A stretch of DNA of 64,000 nt, from assembly GCA_903929755.1 (NCBI GenBank), contig CAIYVZ010000061.1, forward strand, positions 1-64,000, given 5' to 3'. Below are positions 53,552-62,501 of the stretch, piece by piece. Position 1 is the first letter of the stretch, and every line of letters begins with the position of its first letter. Source of the stretch: an uncultured Acidobacteriia bacterium (GTDB lineage Bacteria > Acidobacteriota > Terriglobia > Bryobacterales > Bryobacteraceae). Under the pieces are notes generated by a model. That model was not told the origin of the DNA. It did not search any database and saw only the letters and a list, made by a program, of their open reading frames with translations. A program made the translations under genes and the position numbers.

Positions 53552-56026
53552 CTACGGTACCCATCCAACATAAACCTGGAATGGTGCCCAGTAGAACGGC
53601 TTGGCGTATGCACCACCAGCGGTATGGATCAGTTCCAGTTTGGCGGCCCGGAGCGCCTCGGGCGGGGAGTTCCCCGCCGCGATCTGGCTATACAAGCCAC
53701 CCATCAGTTGGGCGGTGGAACGGTCACTTACGTCCCAAAGTCCCGCAATCACATTGTGTGCCCCGGCCCGCAGAAAGGCCCAGGTGAAACCGACCATACC
53801 TTCGCCCGCCCAGGTCTTGCCACCTGCGCTCCGGCACGCCGAGATAGTGACCAGTTCAGCGGTGAGCGGTATCGCCATAACGTCGCGAGCCAACAGCCTG
53901 CGCTTTTCCGGCACGCCCGCCAGGATGACCGCTGAATCCAGGGGAGTCTGCCGGTTTGCTGCGGCATGTGCCGCAAAGTGGATGTAGCCGAATCTCTTTG
54001 GCTGTGCGATCGTGTACGCCGCGGGCGTGGCCGAATCACCCTGAAGCAGCAGGGTTCCGGGTCCGCCCACGCTCTTCGCCACGGCCGCGATCTCCTGCCC
54101 GGCAAATTCGAGCACCGGATACTGAGGTGTCCCGCCCGCCACGTTCCCCATTGCCAGAAGCCCCGAAGCCTGCTTCACGCCAGCCGCCCGGTGTCTACCC
54201 GCCAGATAGTTCAGGGAGGGAACCACTGAGACAGTCGCATCTTCCAGCCAAAACTGACCCGGCGCACCGGCCTTGGGCAGAGCTTCCAAATTGAATGAAT
54301 ACAGATCCTGATCGGGTACCACCACAAAGCGGCCCGGCCCGGTGACACCAGGCGCGAGCAGGATTTCGTACAAACGCCGCCCTGCTTGGCCGGCAACCTC
54401 CAGAGGATTGCGGCCACTGGTGATGACGGCCCGGTAGTTCTCAATCAGGTCCCGAATTTGGGCGCGCGCCGGGAGCTCATGAATCTGGATACTGTCCGGA
54501 TGAACCACCCACAGATAGGATTTCTGCGGCCCCAGCAAGTACTCAAACAGGACCGCCTTCATGCGCCGCGACAGAGCTTTGTAGTCGGCCGCCGTGAAGT
54601 TCTTCGCCCCCGCCGCCCCGCCGCTGCGTTCTTCCAGCAGACGAGCCCTGCTGGCATCCGCCACCTCCAGCGCCTTCTCCGGTTGCTTTCCGGCGATCAG
54701 GAATTCCACATAATCGCGGTGGAAGCGAATCAGGCTGGCCAGATATGAAACCTTGTAATCATCCTTCACCAGCTTCTGGCGGCTGGCTTCAATCATCCGG
54801 AGCGTATTACGGAATTCGGTCTCCGCCTCACGCGACCGGCCCTCCCGCACATTCAGGCGGGCCAGTCCGGCATGGGCTTCGAGCAAAGCCGAAGGGTCGT
54901 CACCGGAACTGCTCAGCGTGGTCCGAAACAAACGTCGGGCCTCGGCTATATCGCCCCGACCTTCAGCCACCCGTCCGGCGTTTACGGCCAGCATCAAACC
55001 CCACTGGTTGTCGCCGGCAGTCCGCAGCGTCTTCGCCGCTTCCGCGTTGTACCGCGCGGCGTCATCCCACTTCCCCAGCTCCACCGAGGTGGCCGCTAAA
55101 TTCGCCAGCCACAGGCCCGCACGGCCTGAATTTCCGACGGCGCGCGCCAGCTCCAGCGCTCGCAGATATCCCTGTTCCGCTGCCGCATAATCGCCCCGCT
55201 CAAACGGCACGTTGGCGGCATTACCCAGCCAGATTTGCTGACTATTGCGATTACCCGTCTTCGCAAAACTATCCTGGGTGATCCGGTAGTGAAGCTGGGC
55301 GTTGTCATAGTCGCCCAAGCCCCAATAGCAACTGGCCAGATTGCCGTGATTCCGCGCCACCGACTCTGCCGCGCCTAGTTCCGTGAACAGCGCAATCGTC
55401 TTTTCCAGCCACGGAATCGCCTCTTCGCAGCGTTGCGCGGCCTGCAGCAGAAACCCAATGTTGCCAACAGCGTTTGCCGCAAGATACGCATCGTGCAGGC
55501 GCTGCGCCGTCTCCGCGACACTCTGGAATGCCTCGCGGGCATCGTCATACTTACCCTGCCGGAGCAACAGCAGTCCTGTGCGGAACCGGGCTTCGGCGGC
55601 AAGGTTTTCCGCGCCGGTTACCCGCGCGATCTCCGCCGCACTCGCAAACTCCTGACCCGCTTCCTGATCGCGCCGCTGCTGGTAGTGGATGCGCCCGCGC
55701 AGCACATGTAACCGCCCCTGAATCTCCCCACCCTCGGGGGCAGGTTCGAAACGCCCCAGCAGAGCTTCCGCCTCGGGAACCTTTCGCTGACCCAGCAAAG
55801 TATCGGCCACCAGCAGGCGAAACTTCCATCGCTCCGCGGTCGACCCCTTCTGCTCCGCGCGAGCCAAACCCGCCCTGGCAGCCGCAAGAGCGGGCTCGAA
55901 GTGTTCACTGTAAAGCAGATGCTGCGCCGCGCTGTATTCTGCGTCAGGTGAAGCGGGCGCAGTGCCCCTCTGGCCAGAGGAGCAGGCCACCAGGAGGAGA
56001 ACCATCAGCGCGGCAGGGAGGCGCAT
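53552..56026 (-). CDS. TPR-CHAT domain lipoprotein (caspase-like peptidase)
   Basis: An 824-residue protein. The N-terminus is a lipoprotein signal (LMVLLLVACSSG, Cys15 in the lipobox LVAC), so the protein should be membrane-anchored in the cell envelope. Residues 30-450 are TPR-type repeats (AEARFRTGLLLLRQGKYDDA; ARNHGNLASCYWGLGDYDNA; WLANLAATSVELGKWDDAAR). Residues 540-820 are a CHAT domain. It has the His in YIHFAAHAAANRQTPLDSAV and the Cys in LVTISACRSAGGKTWAGEGM, which form the caspase-like dyad. CHAT-TPR proteins are proteases in several defence and signalling systems. It lies 50-odd bases from the unknown gene at 56079. Confidence 0.88.
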   Translation of the reverse strand: MRLPAALMVLLLVACSSGQRGTAPASPDAEYSAAQHLLYSEHFEPALAAARAGLARAEQKGSTAERWKFRLLVADTLLGQRKVPEAEALLGRFEPAPEGGEIQGRLHVLRGRIHYQQRRDQEAGQEFASAAEIARVTGAENLAAEARFRTGLLLLRQGKYDDAREAFQSVAETAQRLHDAYLAANAVGNIGFLLQAAQRCEEAIPWLEKTIALFTELGAAESVARNHGNLASCYWGLGDYDNAQLHYRITQDSFAKTGNRNSQQIWLGNAANVPFERGDYAAAEQGYLRALELARAVGNSGRAGLWLANLAATSVELGKWDDAARYNAEAAKTLRTAGDNQWGLMLAVNAGRVAEGRGDIAEARRLFRTTLSSSGDDPSALLEAHAGLARLNVREGRSREAETEFRNTLRMIEASRQKLVKDDYKVSYLASLIRFHRDYVEFLIAGKQPEKALEVADASRARLLEERSGGAAGAKNFTAADYKALSRRMKAVLFEYLLGPQKSYLWVVHPDSIQIHELPARAQIRDLIENYRAVITSGRNPLEVAGQAGRRLYEILLAPGVTGPGRFVVVPDQDLYSFNLEALPKAGAPGQFWLEDATVSVVPSLNYLAGRHRAAGVKQASGLLAMGNVAGGTPQYPVLEFAGQEIAAVAKSVGGPGTLLLQGDSATPAAYTIAQPKRFGYIHFAAHAAANRQTPLDSAVILAGVPEKRRLLARDVMAIPLTAELVTISACRSAGGKTWAGEGMVGFTWAFLRAGAHNVIAGLWDVSDRSTAQLMGGLYSQIAAGNSPPEALRAAKLELIHTAGGAYAKPFYWAPFQVYVGWVP

Positions 56027-56078: not shown

Positions 56079-56885
56079 CTACTCGCCGTTCGGTTCGCCG
56101 CCGTCACCCACGCTCAGGCACATCATCCTGCCCTTGTAGGGGCAATCAAAGCTGATCTGCAGCATGTTGATCACGCGCGTTGCCGGAGACAAAACCAGTT
56201 CCGCCAGCCGAATGGTTCCGAAACCCGGGACATGAATGATATGCCCCCAGGCCTCGAGCCCTCCCGTTTCGGGCACCAGCGACCGGACCAGCGAGAGGCG
56301 CTCCGGCATTTGGCCCGCGCTGCCGCCACTCGGAAGCCAGCGCTGAATCTTCGCCGGCACGTCAGAAGAGTGACGCATCGCCGCGCGGTCCATCAGGTTC
56401 CGCACGTCATCGTTATCCTTGTAGGCCCCGCAGAGCGTGGAATGGGTGTCGTACTTATCGAAGAGATCGGTTGCCAGATCCACCTTCACCGGGATCCCCG
56501 CAATCCGCAGATTCTCAAACCGCGTTCCAAGCAACCGCACCGAGTTCTGGCCCACGGCCGGAGAATAGGTGGACACCAGATTCGCTACAATTCGATCGGC
56601 CGTCACCATCCCCATAATGTTGAGGCCTTCCACACTGGCCTTCAGATGCGTGGCAGCCGACCACTCGCCGGTCTTGCAATCACACTCGGAACCCGACACT
56701 TCACTCGCGGCAAGGTGAAACCGGAGCAGGTCGCGACATTCGAAATTGGTTACGCGCGCAGTTCCCCTGCCCCCGATAGCCGGCAGCGCGGTTGCCGCCT
56801 GAACTTCTATCGTTTCTAAGAAGGGCTGGGTGATCTGGCCGGCAACGCCAATGGCATATCCGTGGAATCGAAAACGGCTGGACAC
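56079..56885 (-). CDS. Unknown protein in the CHAT/sigma cluster
   Basis: A 268-residue protein I do not recognise. It has no signal peptide and no membrane helix. It starts MSSRFRFHGYAIGVAGQITQPF. Cysteines are scattered (NFECRDLL, CDCKTGEW, DCPYKGRMMC). The middle (RIVANLVSTY, RFENLRIAGIPVKVDLATDL) is beta-like, as in bacterial contractile or ligand-binding folds. It sits between the CHAT lipoprotein and an anti-sigma factor, all on the minus strand. Presence of the same set in other genomes would help to place it. Confidence 0.55.
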   Translation of the reverse strand: MSSRFRFHGYAIGVAGQITQPFLETIEVQAATALPAIGGRGTARVTNFECRDLLRFHLAASEVSGSECDCKTGEWSAATHLKASVEGLNIMGMVTADRIVANLVSTYSPAVGQNSVRLLGTRFENLRIAGIPVKVDLATDLFDKYDTHSTLCGAYKDNDDVRNLMDRAAMRHSSDVPAKIQRWLPSGGSAGQMPERLSLVRSLVPETGGLEAWGHIIHVPGFGTIRLAELVLSPATRVINMLQISFDCPYKGRMMCLSVGDGGEPNGE

Positions 56886-56916: not shown

Positions 56917-57576
56917 TTATCTGAATCGGAGTGTGAAGGAAAATATGGAGATATTGCGGTCGCCTTCCGGACCACGCAGCACCAGTTGGTAGTCGCCCCC
57001 GCTCAAGCGCTTCGTCGGCACAAGAATGGTGATGGGCTGGCCGGGCGCCGGAGCCTCGGCAGGAAGCGTAAACAGCGCAGTGCCCCCAACCTGAAGCTCG
57101 CAGTTGTAGCGGGCAAAATGTGCATCCGGGGGAACATCCACAGCGAGTGCAAACGCCGCAGCACCCGTGGGCACTTCCACCACCGTCGCCTCGCCTCTTG
57201 ACGCCCCAATCAACTGGAACGCCGGCAGAACACGCGGTGCATTCAGCTTTGGAATTACGACAGTACCCTGGTAAACCGCCACCATGGCCAGTGCCAGCGA
57301 GGTAGCGGGCAGCAGCATGCCACCCCAGGTCCAACGAATCCCGAGCCGCTCCCATAATGCCGGGCGCACCACTTCCCGCGGCATCTCCCGCAGAACTTCC
57401 TGCGCATTCACGATAAATAACTGGCCCGCTTCCACCGCCGCCGCGCACTCTTCGCACTCGAAGTAATGGCGCTCGAACTCTTCCGATTCCGCAGCGCTCA
57501 ACTCTTTCAGCAGGTAGCGATCCACCCACCGTTCCTTTACAGCTGTCGCATGATCGAGTGGAGCTGAATTATGCAT
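56917..57576 (-). CDS. Anti-sigma factor with zinc-finger motif
   Basis: A 219-residue protein. The N-terminal HYFECEECAAAVEAG holds the ZAS motif His-x3-Cys-x2-Cys (His37, Cys41, Cys44), which grips an ECF sigma factor in the cytoplasm. One membrane helix at about residues 85-105 (MLLPATSLALAMVAVYQGTV) leads to a beta-sandwich periplasmic sensor (GAAAFALAVDVPPDAHFARY; GGDYQLVLRGPEGDRNISIF). It overlaps the ECF sigma gene by eight bases, so it is its direct partner. Confidence 0.9.
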   Translation of the reverse strand: MHNSAPLDHATAVKERWVDRYLLKELSAAESEEFERHYFECEECAAAVEAGQLFIVNAQEVLREMPREVVRPALWERLGIRWTWGGMLLPATSLALAMVAVYQGTVVIPKLNAPRVLPAFQLIGASRGEATVVEVPTGAAAFALAVDVPPDAHFARYNCELQVGGTALFTLPAEAPAPGQPITILVPTKRLSGGDYQLVLRGPEGDRNISIFSFTLRFR

Positions 57577-58171
57577 GTCGCCCCCCGGCAGCCATCAGGC
57601 CGCGCTTGTCCTCACCGGAAATTGCGGATTTGAACTTCTGGCGCGCCCGATACAGCAACACCCGCAGATACGACCGGTCCACATTGAACTCTCGGCAAAC
57701 GGAGTCTTTGTTCTCCTCATCCAGGAAGACCCGCCGCAGCAGTTGACGATCTTTGTCCGACAACTCTTCCAGCAACCTGCGGACCCTCGCCTTTCGCTCC
57801 GTTGTCACCATCTGGCGTTCCGGATCCATGCCTCGATCGACAGGCCCTGGATGGTCGTCTGCCAGTTGATCATGTCGCGTATGCGCCCGGAGGAACTCCA
57901 TGGCCACGTTATGGCTGGTCGAATAAACGAAGCCCGGCAGACTGCCAGGGTTATCCAGCGTCTTGCCGGCCCGAAAGTAGGCAAGCGTGCGCAGGAAGGT
58001 CTCCTGGAACGCATCCTGCACCAGTTCCGGAGACTTCAAACGTGCCCGCAGTTTCACGCGGACCGGCCGGGAAAAATGCGCCACAAGGTGATCTTCCACC
58101 TCAGGGTTTCGGTCTCTGAGGGCTTCCAGATAGCTCGTATTGAAGGAGCTTGTGTCGAACAGACTTGTCAC
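57569..58171 (-). CDS. ECF sigma factor (RpoE-like)
   Basis: A sigma-70 family protein of 200 residues from the GTG at 58171 (TSLFDTSSFNTSYLEALRDR); the frame is open to 58273 but that extension is Pro/Ala rich. Region 2 has LVQDAFQETFLRTLAYF, and region 4 has LLEELSDKDRQLLRRVFLDE and VCREFNVDRSYLRVLLYRAR. It is controlled by the membrane anti-sigma factor encoded immediately after it. It is divergent from the RiPP-like operon at 58459, which makes that operon a candidate target. Confidence 0.88.
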   Translation of the reverse strand: MTSLFDTSSFNTSYLEALRDRNPEVEDHLVAHFSRPVRVKLRARLKSPELVQDAFQETFLRTLAYFRAGKTLDNPGSLPGFVYSTSHNVAMEFLRAHTRHDQLADDHPGPVDRGMDPERQMVTTERKARVRRLLEELSDKDRQLLRRVFLDEENKDSVCREFNVDRSYLRVLLYRARQKFKSAISGEDKRGLMAAGGRHA

Positions 58172-58458
58172 CGTCCCGTGAACCGAGCATAACAAAAGGT
58201 TGGGGGGATGTGGGGCGCGCGGGGCCTGCTCCGCATACCCACCGATATTTACTGTCATTACGCTCGAAATCATCGCAGTCCGGAAGCTCCTGAAGTGTCA
58301 TTAGTGTTTGGCGAATGAGAACCGTTTCATAAAAACAGCGAGAAAAAATATTTGAAACGCTCTTCCCCGTGGTTGCACTTCACCAGGCGAGTTGGCCAAC
58401 TCAAACCGAATGTAGTCTGACTTCAAAACCGTAAGGCTTATCCAAGGAGAGTTTCACC

Positions 58459-58902
58459 ATGACGTTCAAAGTAAAAGACCTGATGATCGAGCTGAGCCAG
58501 CCCGGCGCAGCTTGCCATCCCACCTTTGTCTGTGCCTGCACGCATATCACGCACGTCACGTGCGGTTTCTGCAGCTTCGCTCACACCATCTGTCACTTGG
58601 GCTGCAGTCTCGCGCAGCCGTCATTCTGCCAGCATGGCTCCATCACCGTCACCATCACGTGCCCTGGCACTCTGGTGACCGACACCTCACCCATCATCCA
58701 AACCCTTCCGCAGGTCAACGGAGCGGCCCTGGGCAACTTGAAGAACCAGTTGAAAGAGGCTCTCGCGGCGGCCGAAAAACAGGAGGCAGCGGAGGCGAAC
58801 GCCCTGCAGGTGCAGACGGTAGCCGACGCTGAACTGCTGGAAAAGAAGCTCGGTGAAGCACTCGAAGAAGTCCGCGCCCGCAAGGCCCAGCTCAAGAAGT
58901 AG
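58459..58902 (+). CDS. Cys/His/Thr-rich small protein, candidate RiPP precursor
   Basis: A 147-residue protein with a strong Shine-Dalgarno (AAGGAG at 58444-58449). Residues 1-17 (MTFKVKDLMIELSQPGA) resemble a short leader. Residues 18-70 hold nine cysteines (19, 25, 27, 35, 38, 45, 49, 57, 68) among many Thr, Ser and His (CACTHITHVTCGFC; AHTICHLGCS). Residues 85-147 are a charged Ala/Glu/Lys/Leu helix that looks like a coiled coil. The gene heads an operon with a HopA1-like and a kinase-LanC protein, which would phosphorylate and eliminate Ser/Thr and close thioether rings. A metal-binding or structural role is the alternative. Confidence 0.7.
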   Translation: MTFKVKDLMIELSQPGAACHPTFVCACTHITHVTCGFCSFAHTICHLGCSLAQPSFCQHGSITVTITCPGTLVTDTSPIIQTLPQVNGAALGNLKNQLKEALAAAEKQEAAEANALQVQTVADAELLEKKLGEALEEVRARKAQLKK

Positions 58903-58939
58903 AAAGTAAATGACGCCGGAAAGCACAGGAAGGCCCGCC

Positions 58940-60154
58940 ATGACGACCACACGCACAAAGCCCGCTATAGATCAGGCCCTCAGGCTGAAGTACGTTCTGG
59001 ACGGGACCTTCCGTGCCAACCCGGACTATCAACTCATCGCTCTCGATCAACTCCCCGCAGACCAGCGCGAGCTCTTTGCCGCGCTCAGCGATAACCCCGA
59101 TAATTACGGCGTTCTGATGCCGCGGGAAGCGTCGGGCCTGCCCCTGAAATCCGCTTGCCGCGATACCGCACGGCTGTTCCTGGCACTACAGGAACCTGCG
59201 GCGCTCCCGGCCTTCGCCACCACAGGCCCGGGCGAAAACAACAATCAGGGCATCGCGCAGCTTGTCCTCGACGGCATTCTGCAGCTTTCTCATCACGGCG
59301 AGATGCTCAGCGGACCCGCAGCTTACGCTGCCGTTTGTGCCGCTTCCGGGCACGCGGATGCCACCAGCGGCATCGCCCAACTCTCTCGCGAAGCGCTGCT
59401 CTATGCGCAATCCCTGCCATTCACGGAAGCGGGCATGCTTTCAGCCAGGCTCTATAGCTATGGCCGCCTCCCCGTAACCGGTTCGTGGAAACGCCGCTTT
59501 CCCCATGAGGGAGCGGTCAGCCGGGCCCTTGGAGTGGATCCCGGCGGCAAGAACGCCTTGCGCCTCTCCGCCCACTGGAAGTCGCTGCCTCCCGAGCCCG
59601 ACAACGATGGCTGGCTCTTCTGGCAATCGCGAACGCCCTCCACCACTGAGCCCCTCGCCGCCTGTAAGCTCTACCTGAGCCCGCATCCCGACTATCTGGC
59701 CCCGGCTTTCGAAGCTATGGTGCCGGCCCTCGAAGCCTCACACGCCAACGCTTTCAAAGTAGGTAAGGATTTGAACGGCGTGCTCCGTTCCGACAAGATG
59801 ATCGCCTATTTCTCCCGCCTGGAACAACTGCACGCGGCCGCCGACCGAATCCTGGACACTCTCGCGGGCTGCCCCGCCCAGGGCGTACCGTTTACCTGCC
59901 AGATCGAGACTCCCCTGGTCTCCTGGGGCTCCGATCCGGTTACTGAAACCGGCGTTCCGCCCTGGCTGGCGCGCCAAAGCTGGCGACTCTGGATCACCAA
60001 TCGTCTCGCCGTTTCGCTCATTGCCGCCAGGCAGCAACCCAACCCCCACGGCCGCGAGCCCTGGCACTTTGCCCTGGACCGCCTGCGCCTCGAAGGCGTC
60101 AACACCGACACCTGGAGTCCGCTCCAAAACCGCTCAACTCAGAAGGAGAAATAA
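58940..60154 (+). CDS. HopA1-like protein, candidate phospho-Ser/Thr lyase
   Basis: A 404-residue protein from the ATG at 58940, which has AGGAAGG eight bases upstream; an in-frame ATG at 58910 has a poorer site. The order LYSYGRLPVTGSW, WLFWQSRTP, KLYLSPHPDYLAPAFEAMVP, AFKVGKDLNGVLRSDKMIAY, LVSWGSDP and SWRLWITNRL matches the bacterial HopA1 (LxmY/TvaD-like) family. In class V lanthipeptide and thioamitide pathways such proteins remove phosphate from phospho-Ser/Thr to give dehydro residues. It follows the candidate precursor by 37 bases and precedes the kinase-cyclase by one base. Confidence 0.8.
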   Translation: MTTTRTKPAIDQALRLKYVLDGTFRANPDYQLIALDQLPADQRELFAALSDNPDNYGVLMPREASGLPLKSACRDTARLFLALQEPAALPAFATTGPGENNNQGIAQLVLDGILQLSHHGEMLSGPAAYAAVCAASGHADATSGIAQLSREALLYAQSLPFTEAGMLSARLYSYGRLPVTGSWKRRFPHEGAVSRALGVDPGGKNALRLSAHWKSLPPEPDNDGWLFWQSRTPSTTEPLAACKLYLSPHPDYLAPAFEAMVPALEASHANAFKVGKDLNGVLRSDKMIAYFSRLEQLHAAADRILDTLAGCPAQGVPFTCQIETPLVSWGSDPVTETGVPPWLARQSWRLWITNRLAVSLIAARQQPNPHGREPWHFALDRLRLEGVNTDTWSPLQNRSTQKEK

Positions 60155-60155
60155 C

Positions 60156-62501
60156 ATGCAAGGTCTCGTCGTTCTGCCCGAAGATGTTCAAATCGTTCCG
60201 CTCTCCGAAATGTCCGCCCAGGTCCGCGACCAGGTCTCCGGTGAGGACAGCGACTTCGCGCTCACCCGCCCACGTTCGCGAGTTCCCTCCAAGGTGATTG
60301 ACGCGAACTCCGCCACGCTGCTCCGCCAGTTCCGCACGCCGAAGACAATTGTCGAGGGCCTGCTGGCGTTCAGCCGGGAGATTAAGGCCACGCCGTCGGA
60401 AGTGCTCGACGACGCCTATCCCCTCATCGAGAGCTGCCTGCTTGCCCGTATCCTCGTTGAGCCCGGCGTGGACTCAGAGAAGATCGCCGCCGCCTTCGCG
60501 GCAGGGGAGACCATAGCGGGCCACACCGTGATACGGCCAATTCAGGCCCTGATCGATTCTGAAGTCTACCAGGTGAGCACGCCCTCCGGCCGCCACGCGG
60601 CGTTGAAAATCACCACCGTGAACGGCACGGCCACCACGAAGCCGCTGCTGGAGAAAGAGGCCTGCCACCTGACCCGTATTGGCGGCGCTCCCTCCCCCAT
60701 GCTGCTCCAGACCGGAGTCCTGGCGGACCAGCGCCAGTACCTTATCACCGAGTGGTTCCCTGGAGACGACGCTGAGACCGTCGCGCGCAACTTCCGCGAG
60801 CAGAACACGCCCGAGGCGGCAAAGGATCTGGCTGAAATTTGCGCCGATATTCTGGAGGGCTACGCCACGCTCCACGAGCGCGGCATCCTGCACGGCGACG
60901 TGCACCCCCGCAACGTGCTCGTTTCGCCCACCGGCGAAGTTCGCATCATCGATTTAGGCATCGCTTCGGAAATCGGGGCTCCCGTCAGCCGGACCTCCAG
61001 AGCCGGGGTCCCGTTTTTCTTTGACCCCGAATACGCCTCGGCGGTCCGGTCTGGTCGCCGCCCGCCTCTGCCCAACCAGGCCAGTGAACAGTATGGTGTC
61101 GCGGCGCTCGTGTACTCGCTTCTCTGCGGAAAGCACTACGTTGATTTCTCGTGGGATAAAGACGAGTTGCTGCGTCAGATTGCGGAAGACAAACCCATGC
61201 CGTTCCAGCGGCGCGGGGCGGACCGCTTTGCCTCTGTCGAAACCGTGGTCCTGCAGGCTCTTAGTAAGGATCCGGCCGACCGCTTCGGGGCAATGCGCGA
61301 CTTCGCTACTGCTTTTTGTCAGGCGCTGCGGCGTAATGCAGGCATTCCCGTTCCGGCGCCTTCCGAAGGCCGCGAGGCAGGTAAACTGCTGGCGCGGGTT
61401 CTGAACCTAATGGGCGATCCGAACCGCCCCCTCACCGGCCCCGGCCCCGCGTCCCCCCTCGCGTCCGTAACCTATGGCTACGCCGGAATTGCCTGTGCCG
61501 CATACCGCATCGCCTGCGCGAAGGACGATTCCCGGCTCCTCTCGCTGGCCGATGCGTGGGCCGAACGAGCTGCAGTCACCCGCGGCGACAACGCGTTCTA
61601 CAACGAAGGCATTCAGATCACCCCCGAAGTTGTGGGAAGGGTTTCGCCGTATCACACAGCCAGCGGAATTTCCACGGTTCAGGCTTTTATCGCGAGCGCC
61701 CGAGGTGATGGCCGAAGCATGGAAGCAGCCCTCAACGCCTTCCTCAGGCAGACCATGGCGGAGTGCGATAACCCCGACCTCACCCTGGGCACCGCCAGTA
61801 TCCTGCTGGCTCTGACGCTTCTAATGGAAACCTGCGACGCCGGCGACTCGGACATTTTGCTCGCGCGGGGAAACGAACTTCAGGCCGCCGTGAACAGCGT
61901 GCTCGAAGACCCCTCCTCCACCATCTCTTACCTGGGCATCGCGCACGGCTGGGCCGGTCTGCTCTACGCGTCTCTCCGCTGGTCGGGGCTCGCGCAGACC
62001 GCCCCCACCGAAGCCGTCCGGCGCCGTCTCAGGGAACTTGCCAGCCAGGCAATACCGACCCGCCGCGGGGCCCGCTGGCCAGTGCAATCAACAGCCGGCT
62101 CCCTTGCCCTCTCCGGCTGGTGCAACGGAAGCGCCGGGTATGCCCATCTATGGACGCTGGCCCACAAGACCTTCGCCGAGGCACAATACCTGGACCTTGC
62201 CCAACGCGCTGCCATGGACGCGTATGAAGGCACCGGCGGAGGCTATGGCCTCTGTTGCGGCTATGCCGGACAGGCCTACGCGCAGCTAAGCCTCTACAAA
62301 CACACCGGAGACTTCGTCTGGCTCCACCAGGCCCGCACGCTCGCCGAAAAAGCCGCAACCGCAGCCAACATGGCGCACCGCCAGGGTATCGAAGGCCTGC
62401 CCTTTAGCCTCTATAAAGGTGACATTGGCGTGGCCGTTCTTGTCGCCGACCTGGACCGGCCCGAACTCGCTGCCATGCCCTTCTTCGAATCGGCCTCTTA
62501 G
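60156..62501 (+). CDS. Protein kinase-LanC fusion, lanthipeptide synthetase-like
   Basis: A 781-residue two-part enzyme, ATG at 60156 with AAGGAG upstream. After an N-terminal region (1-120), residues 121-395 are a Ser/Thr kinase-like domain: Lys151 in AALKITT, HGDVHPRN (Asp248) and DLG (Asp266) where kinases have DFG. Residues 435-781 are a LanC-type alpha/alpha barrel with AHGWAG (His597), GWCNGSAG (Cys656) and GLCCGYAGQ (Cys700-Cys701). The CCG replaces the usual CHG, as in the ProcM-like group with three zinc cysteines. No separate OspF-like lyase is seen; the preceding HopA1-like protein may supply that step. Confidence 0.82.
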   Translation: MQGLVVLPEDVQIVPLSEMSAQVRDQVSGEDSDFALTRPRSRVPSKVIDANSATLLRQFRTPKTIVEGLLAFSREIKATPSEVLDDAYPLIESCLLARILVEPGVDSEKIAAAFAAGETIAGHTVIRPIQALIDSEVYQVSTPSGRHAALKITTVNGTATTKPLLEKEACHLTRIGGAPSPMLLQTGVLADQRQYLITEWFPGDDAETVARNFREQNTPEAAKDLAEICADILEGYATLHERGILHGDVHPRNVLVSPTGEVRIIDLGIASEIGAPVSRTSRAGVPFFFDPEYASAVRSGRRPPLPNQASEQYGVAALVYSLLCGKHYVDFSWDKDELLRQIAEDKPMPFQRRGADRFASVETVVLQALSKDPADRFGAMRDFATAFCQALRRNAGIPVPAPSEGREAGKLLARVLNLMGDPNRPLTGPGPASPLASVTYGYAGIACAAYRIACAKDDSRLLSLADAWAERAAVTRGDNAFYNEGIQITPEVVGRVSPYHTASGISTVQAFIASARGDGRSMEAALNAFLRQTMAECDNPDLTLGTASILLALTLLMETCDAGDSDILLARGNELQAAVNSVLEDPSSTISYLGIAHGWAGLLYASLRWSGLAQTAPTEAVRRRLRELASQAIPTRRGARWPVQSTAGSLALSGWCNGSAGYAHLWTLAHKTFAEAQYLDLAQRAAMDAYEGTGGGYGLCCGYAGQAYAQLSLYKHTGDFVWLHQARTLAEKAATAANMAHRQGIEGLPFSLYKGDIGVAVLVADLDRPELAAMPFFESAS

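Follow-up and report, generated by a model that had tools for sequence, protein, structure and literature searches.

A probable two-component lanthipeptide synthetase with a stand-alone lyase and an RRE-like, kinase and LanC fusion in an uncultured acidobacterium

Where among the known lanthipeptide classes does a gene set belong that keeps its lyase apart, as class V does, and joins its kinase to a zinc cyclase, as class IV does? The question is raised by a three-gene unit from a soil bacterium, an uncultured member of the Acidobacteriia, located on the plus strand at positions 58459–62501 of a 64,000-nucleotide stretch of contig CAIYVZ010000061.1 (assembly GCA_903929755.1), hereafter the window. 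A sequence-only reading of this DNA had described a Cys/Ser/Thr-rich small protein, a HopA1-like protein and a kinase-LanC protein, in that order and separated by 37 and 1 bases, and had proposed an intermediate arrangement that may be a distinct class. Three adjacent open reading frames (ORFs) in this order were confirmed: a precursor-like protein of 147 amino acids (aa; 58459–58902), a phospho-Ser/Thr lyase of 404 aa (58940–60154) and a kinase-LanC fusion of 781 aa (60156–62501), preceded by the ribosome-binding-site-like sequences aaggag, aggaagg and aaggag, respectively, as judged by eye. The ATG at 58940 is the more likely start of the lyase, being better placed than the alternative at 58910 (414 aa), and the 37-base gap is correct only if it is used. 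Our analysis indicates that the locus probably encodes a two-component lanthipeptide synthetase outside classes I–VI, together with its substrate, an unusual precursor. Beyond what had been read from the sequence, we describe an RRE-like domain, a related domain at the N-terminus of the lyase, a CCG site in the cyclase and a two-ended precursor.

Two putative enzymes

The lyase assignment rests on fold and profile-profile comparison because matches in sequence libraries are weak or absent. An AlphaFold2 model of the window lyase with 44 relatives aligned had a mean pLDDT of 89.4, and its best match in the PDB was LxmY from the lexapeptide dehydratase complex (9dk3_B, E 2.4e-7). HopA1 effectors, class III synthetases (SalKC/CuvL/ThurKC), SpvC and OspF came next, and all 16 matches at E <= 1e-3 came from the HopA1/OspF/LanY superfamily. 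With hhalign, the lyase profile aligned to four PF17914 (HopA1) sequences over two stretches with scores of 49.6 and 65.7 (best of 60 shuffles, 18.7 and 19.2) and to six RamC_N lyase domains with scores of 39.0 and 41.5 (best shuffles, 22.0 and 24.9). Among the 45 aligned lyases, a set that omits L018 and L063 (the latter is included in the lyase tree), PF17914 matched five (best 6.6e-4, with no cut-off reached among the matches listed), PF25816 RamC_N matched one (0.0015) and the unrelated family PF21274 matched four (best 0.0022). The window lyase had no significant match in NCBIfam, and a search of PDB sequences with the 45 lyases returned a single match that was not significant (E 1.2).

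The predicted catalytic residues point the same way as the fold. K253, Y255, K283, R293 and Y300 (numbered from 58910) are among the residues invariant in the 45 aligned lyases, and the distances K283–R293 (10) and K283–Y300 (17) equal those of K219, R229 and Y236 in CaoY, as numbered in the available text of PMC9486802. In the hhalign alignments, K253 falls on a Lys of class III lyases and on an Arg of PF17914 members. Given the CaoY-like spacing and the alignment of K253 and Y255, the lyase is, as judged from sequence, most like LanY with one LanKC/OspF-like residue, and both its fold and its catalytic Lys and Tyr place it in the HopA1/OspF/LanY superfamily.

The third gene joins a Ser/Thr protein kinase domain (aa 136–380, 60561–61295; Pfam Pkinase 1.5e-19, 70.8 bits) to a LanC cyclase domain (aa 439–777, 61470–62486; LANC_like 7e-30, covering profile positions 8–348 of 350). 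The APH family (PF01636) also scored above its cut-off (35.1 against 23.2 bits), yet its best stretch spanned 30 residues. A model of the fusion had a mean pLDDT of 91.0 and matched ThurKC, LanCL1/2 and PknB. We aligned the window protein with 35 of the 40 listed locus sequences, omitting a near copy (L020), a sequence at a contig end (L023), a broken frame (L035) and two with a degenerate LanC (L057 and L058); L018, L027, L043 and L050 (contig ends) and L060 and L063 (no LanC match) lie outside the 40. In all 36 members the kinase residues K151, E168, D248, N253 and D266 are invariant, as are H597, C656 (62121–62123) and C700–C701 (62253–62258) of the LanC part. Each member also carries a CCG motif in which Cys-Cys replaces the usual Cys-His pair, giving a putative zinc site with three Cys ligands.

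The fusion begins with what looks like a PqqD/RRE-like domain (about aa 1–115, 60156–60500), a putative leader binder. When the first 119 aa of 38 members were compared with 29 PqqD domains, hhalign gave a probability of 93.6% and a score of 39.7 over 53 columns (aa 48–100) at 9% identity, whereas no score above 16.6 was reached in 100 column shuffles. The secondary structure predicted by the model, beta-alpha-beta-beta-alpha-alpha-alpha, comprises three strands and three helices beside a first short helix, and this order of strands followed by three helices, like the profile similarity, fits PqqD/RRE membership. The N-terminal domain of the lyase (59015–59224) aligned with that of the fusion over 65 columns (hhalign 91.8%, score 40.65; best of 100 shuffles, 22.6); compared with PqqD directly by hhalign, it gave no match. 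Because the two N-terminal domains align by profile, the lyase and the kinase-LanC protein appear to share a recognition domain.

A precursor family linked to the cyclase

The first gene encodes a protein with three parts: a putative leader strand (aa 1–13, MTFKVKDLMIELS, 58459–58497), a putative core (aa 14–72, 58498–58674) with nine Cys and 13 Ser/Thr and without Lys, Arg, Asp or Glu, and a Cys-free, follower-like C-terminal part (aa 73–147, 58675–58899) that is predicted to be helical from its composition and its likeness to relatives. Relative to the copy in genome G016 (locus L015), the core is 52% identical, the N-terminal end 77% and the C-terminal end 72%; for the whole protein dN is 0.28 and dS 1.52. 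To survey precursors we used 45 loci (L019–L063), 42 of which have at least 300 bases upstream of the lyase. An ORF with a KDL-type motif in its first 17 aa was present in 38 of these 42 upstream regions, compared with 0.9 expected from Markov-resampled DNA, 0/42 in antisense and 0/67 in other stretches. This looser form of the motif was defined after the sequences had been inspected; a stricter version was found in 21 of the 42 regions, against 0.0 expected.

Many of these precursors, which range from 66 to 282 aa, follow the same plan of motif, variable Cys/Ser/Thr core and C-terminal helix-like part, although some short ones (e.g., L043 and L061) have no visible helix-like end. Repeats occur in the cores, such as CYASGG in L010 and CTDCTTQQFSICGTSP in L048, and two precursor copies each were found in L021 and L059. 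At L023, a precursor ORF that stops 90 bases short of the lyase match has 33 Cys and a core of CTACSACT-like repeats. The precursor on a Paenibacillus peoriae plasmid (L168 5011–5763), inspected by eye, has a first helix and then three motif-core-helix units, a threefold repeat that supports these parts being one module. Cultured strains in which a precursor can be recognised include P. peoriae HS311 and Bailinhaonella thermotolerans. No second precursor was found in the window genome at E <= 1, a search that a motif this short could escape.

Cysteine content followed the state of the cyclase. In four loci (L057, L058, L060 and L063, labelled Nitrosomonas, Neoroseomonas and Cellulomonas) a zinc-ligand motif could not be found in the degenerate LanC part; their precursors retain the N-terminal motif and contain 1, 1, 1 and 0 Cys. 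The other 34 precursors contain 2–33 Cys with a median of 8 (Mann-Whitney p 6e-4 versus the four), counting five (L023, L027, L043, L050 and L035) for which LanC was not fully verified.

Distribution and relation to known classes

The same trio was sought in other genomes. A pattern scan of a genome contig collection, built on six aligned relatives, yielded 46 loci, and seven from further genomes brought the number scanned to 53, with four contigs counted twice (L018 = L015, L033 = L012, L048 = L011 and L051 = L013). The RRE-kinase gene comes after the lyase in all 53 (46/46 contigs, 12 phyla), and in 43 of 45 loci 5–54 bases separate the lyase stop from the first RRE codon. LanC was unseen in seven of the 53, namely L060, L063 and five loci cut off by a contig end, and fragmentary in L057 and L058. 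The contigs are labelled Acidobacteriota, Armatimonadota, Gemmatimonadota, Chloroflexota, Vulcanimicrobiota, Nitrososphaerota, Actinomycetota, Pseudomonadota, Myxococcota, Bacteroidota, Verrucomicrobiota and Elusimicrobiota; many derive from metagenome-assembled genomes, so single phylum labels may be wrong. Within the window's own group the lyase occurs in 2 of 151 relatives, and among 396 genomes of the phylum at least six hold the kinase-LanC protein at E <= 1e-30, the window's own genome being counted in both cases. Lyase relatives were found on two of 72,556 plasmid records, from Paenibacillus peoriae, where the lyase is annotated as a hypothetical protein and its partner as a lanthionine synthetase LanC family protein, and from Cupriavidus oxalaticus; scans of viral contigs confirmed none. 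On the Cupriavidus plasmid (L169 2250–10518), the lyase is followed by an RRE-like start fused to an unrelated ORF; a LanB-like long ORF lies upstream (by eye).

The LanC tree sets these proteins apart. Among its 64 rows the 36 members form one group (100/100), separate from 9 class III, 2 class IV, 4 LanM and 12 LanC rows, with bootstrap not fully settled and class IV or class IV-like proteins represented by 2–4 rows. An unlabelled kinase-LanC row (L122) falls within the group. Reference rows were assigned to classes in this analysis from the LanL score, and two rows labelled class III (L135 and L138) may be class IV-like, since they have a W-C-H-G site and group with a LanL row.

Class V (LxmKY, CaoKY) is the nearest match for the lyase, which lies on its own polypeptide as had been proposed, has the HopA1/LanY fold and profile, finds its best fold match in LxmY and shares the CaoY spacing. 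In the available text of a review (PMC12328550), the kinase of class V is APH-type and its cyclase separate or missing, and both a subgroup Vb that has a cyclase and a cyclase named SmoC are described; the sequence-only reading, which gave class V a separate kinase and lyase, was therefore too general in taking LanC to be absent. In contrast to class V, this unit has no separate APH-type kinase (LanK, PF01636): its kinase is of the Pkinase type and shares a chain with a zinc LanC. It also differs in a Lys where CaoY has Arg187, in the RRE-like domain and in a long precursor whose C-terminal part is helix-like.

Like class IV LanL, the fusion links a Ser/Thr kinase to a zinc-type LanC, as the sequence-only reading had it; its three predicted zinc-ligand residues are all present, with Cys here in place of the usual His. 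In class III and IV enzymes the lyase is in the same chain, and class III enzymes are without zinc ligands, according to the available text of PMC10604976 and PMC9486802. The window fusion, unlike LanL, is without a lyase, which is a separate gene; an RRE-like domain stands there instead, and the CCG site and separate LanC group are further differences. Class III LanKC proteins (ThurKC, CuvL) likewise comprise lyase, kinase and LanC-fold parts, with fold matches to both, but the window system differs in its predicted zinc site and separate lyase. Class VI of Streptococcus, as described in the part of PMC10676316 available, combines a kinase with truncated forms of the lyase and cyclase domains in a single synthetase, whereas the window unit has a near-full LanC and a separate lyase. 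Classes I and II were set aside, as no LanB or LanM dehydratase match was found by Pfam or NCBIfam among ten proteins scanned. The CCG zinc motif is shared with ProcM-type class II LanM, and in class II enzymes it has been tied to substrate tolerance (available text of PMC10027976); unlike ProcM-type systems, the window protein showed no LanM dehydratase domain, and one precursor was found in its genome. Polypeptides of classes II–V are said to have no identifiable RRE, in the available portion of PMC10604976.

The system therefore fits none of the classes compared, which supports the earlier suggestion of an intermediate and perhaps distinct class. A search of the open-access literature, outside which most subscription papers lie, found, in the text available, no description of a separate lyase with an RRE-kinase-LanC protein. 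The arrangement is likely to be new.

Proposed pathway and alternatives

We infer the following pathway. The RRE-like domain of the fusion would bind the N-terminal FKVKDLMI strand of the precursor, and the kinase domain would phosphorylate Ser and Thr in the core of the 147-aa protein. The separate HopA1/LanY-type lyase would then remove phosphate to give dehydroalanine and dehydrobutyrine, to which the zinc LanC, with its three putative Cys ligands, would add core Cys thiols to form (methyl)lanthionine rings. The C-terminal helix may serve as a follower. Because the N-terminal domain of the lyase is related to the RRE-like domain, this enzyme may dock either to the precursor or to the same complex. 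Only tentatively do we extend this pathway to a widespread class outside I–VI with homologous recognition domains on both proteins, precursors read from both ends, products that are large untrimmed multi-ring proteins, and some cyclase-less lineages that make dehydrated, ring-free products; this wider picture is possible but somewhat doubtful.

Several findings weigh against the two-component synthetase. First, the window lyase has no Pfam match even at E 1, so that the earlier HopA1-like label stands by fold and profile comparison and not by a family match of the protein itself; in addition, Y255 puts a Tyr at the position of the catalytic His of OspF and LanKC (class III lyases). Second, the RRE-like assignment comes from profile comparison and predicted secondary structure: Pfam PqqD matched 2 of 38 members (best 0.12), and unrelated families outscored it on this domain, e.g., PF25004 in 5 of 38 (best 0.0015). 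Third, the link between Cys content and zinc site reflects about one or two independent losses, because three of the four zinc-less loci form one clade and the quick lyase tree, in which long branches meet, needs two changes. Fourth, the Cupriavidus oxalaticus plasmid has its full kinase-LanC gene and its lyase on opposite strands, and no KDL-type motif ORF was found upstream in four of the 42 loci (L039, L042, L053 and L062). Lastly, export is unexplained, because no transporter family recurs among the neighbouring genes. These were the 137 nearest ORFs from 41 of 45 loci, after ORFs of >900 aa were dropped; removing 28 by hand (chiefly precursors and close copies) left 109. No transporter family matched two or more of the 109, among the best 25 of 132 and 25 of 539 families listed, and peptidase-like families among the matches listed were S33 in two and M14 in one.

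This last result bears on a reading that overlaps with ours, in which dehydration and cyclisation take place and yield a large modified protein with its C-terminal helix still attached, rather than a small secreted peptide. The lengths of the precursors and the helix-like end of many, the scarcity of transporter and peptidase-like families and the one precursor found in the window genome are all consistent with it. Proteases and exporters are, however, often encoded elsewhere, the ORF calls in the flanks are crude, and the tally was drawn from the best 25 families listed; we regard a large product as a real possibility, though not the expected one.

A divergent class IV system with a split-off lyase, whose chemistry and recognition are those of LanL and which needs no separate class, is unlikely. 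Class IV LanL (NF038150) is the best NCBIfam match of the window fusion (1.6e-42) and matches 36 of 36 members, and a genome survey sorts proteins with LanC and Pkinase domains into class III/IV (available text of PMC7268733). The score of 145.8 bits, however, is far from the cut-off of 650, the lyase is closer to HopA1/LanY than to RamC_N profiles, and the RRE-like domain occupies the place of the LanL lyase. The separation of the LanC group from the others sampled also argues against a split LanL, within the few class IV-like rows of the tree.

It is more improbable still that Ser and Thr are phosphorylated and dehydrated while LanC closes no rings, adding another thiol, as in LanCL proteins, or acting as a regulator: LanCL1 and LanCL2 rank high among the solved structures that the LanC part matches, but precursor Cys is plentiful where the zinc site is present and nearly absent where it is lost. 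That the Cys-rich protein lies beside the enzymes by chance and is not their substrate would accommodate the four loci without a motif ORF, but is very hard to reconcile with such an ORF upstream in 38 of 42 loci against none of 67 other places, and with the paired copies in L021 and L059.

Other genes lie close to the trio in the window. A divergent ECF sigma factor and anti-sigma-like genes (56917–58273) stand beside it and may regulate it, because homologues also occur upstream in G016. There, a tail-sheath gene (L015 3029–4400; Phage_sheath_1C 2.6e-15, the second of two overlapping frames) lies between precursor and sigma factor, whereas in the window the sigma factor directly adjoins the precursor. 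A link to contractile injection, considered on account of this tail-sheath gene, was rejected, as Phage_sheath_1C was not among the matches of the window proteins scanned, which were a part of the window ORFs. A large TPR-CHAT protein (53552–56026) and a choice-of-anchor P protein (56079–56885) are also encoded nearby.

If the two-component synthetase is borne out, it would add a lanthipeptide synthetase architecture, on contigs labelled to 12 phyla, and provide a kinase-type synthetase in which a leader-binding domain can be identified. The survey of PMC7268733, in its available text, apparently covers precursors of 30–120 aa, and with its class III/IV sorting would miss a precursor of 147 aa. 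The loci in which the cyclase is intact or lost would then offer a natural series for how ring formation shapes the evolution of the precursor.

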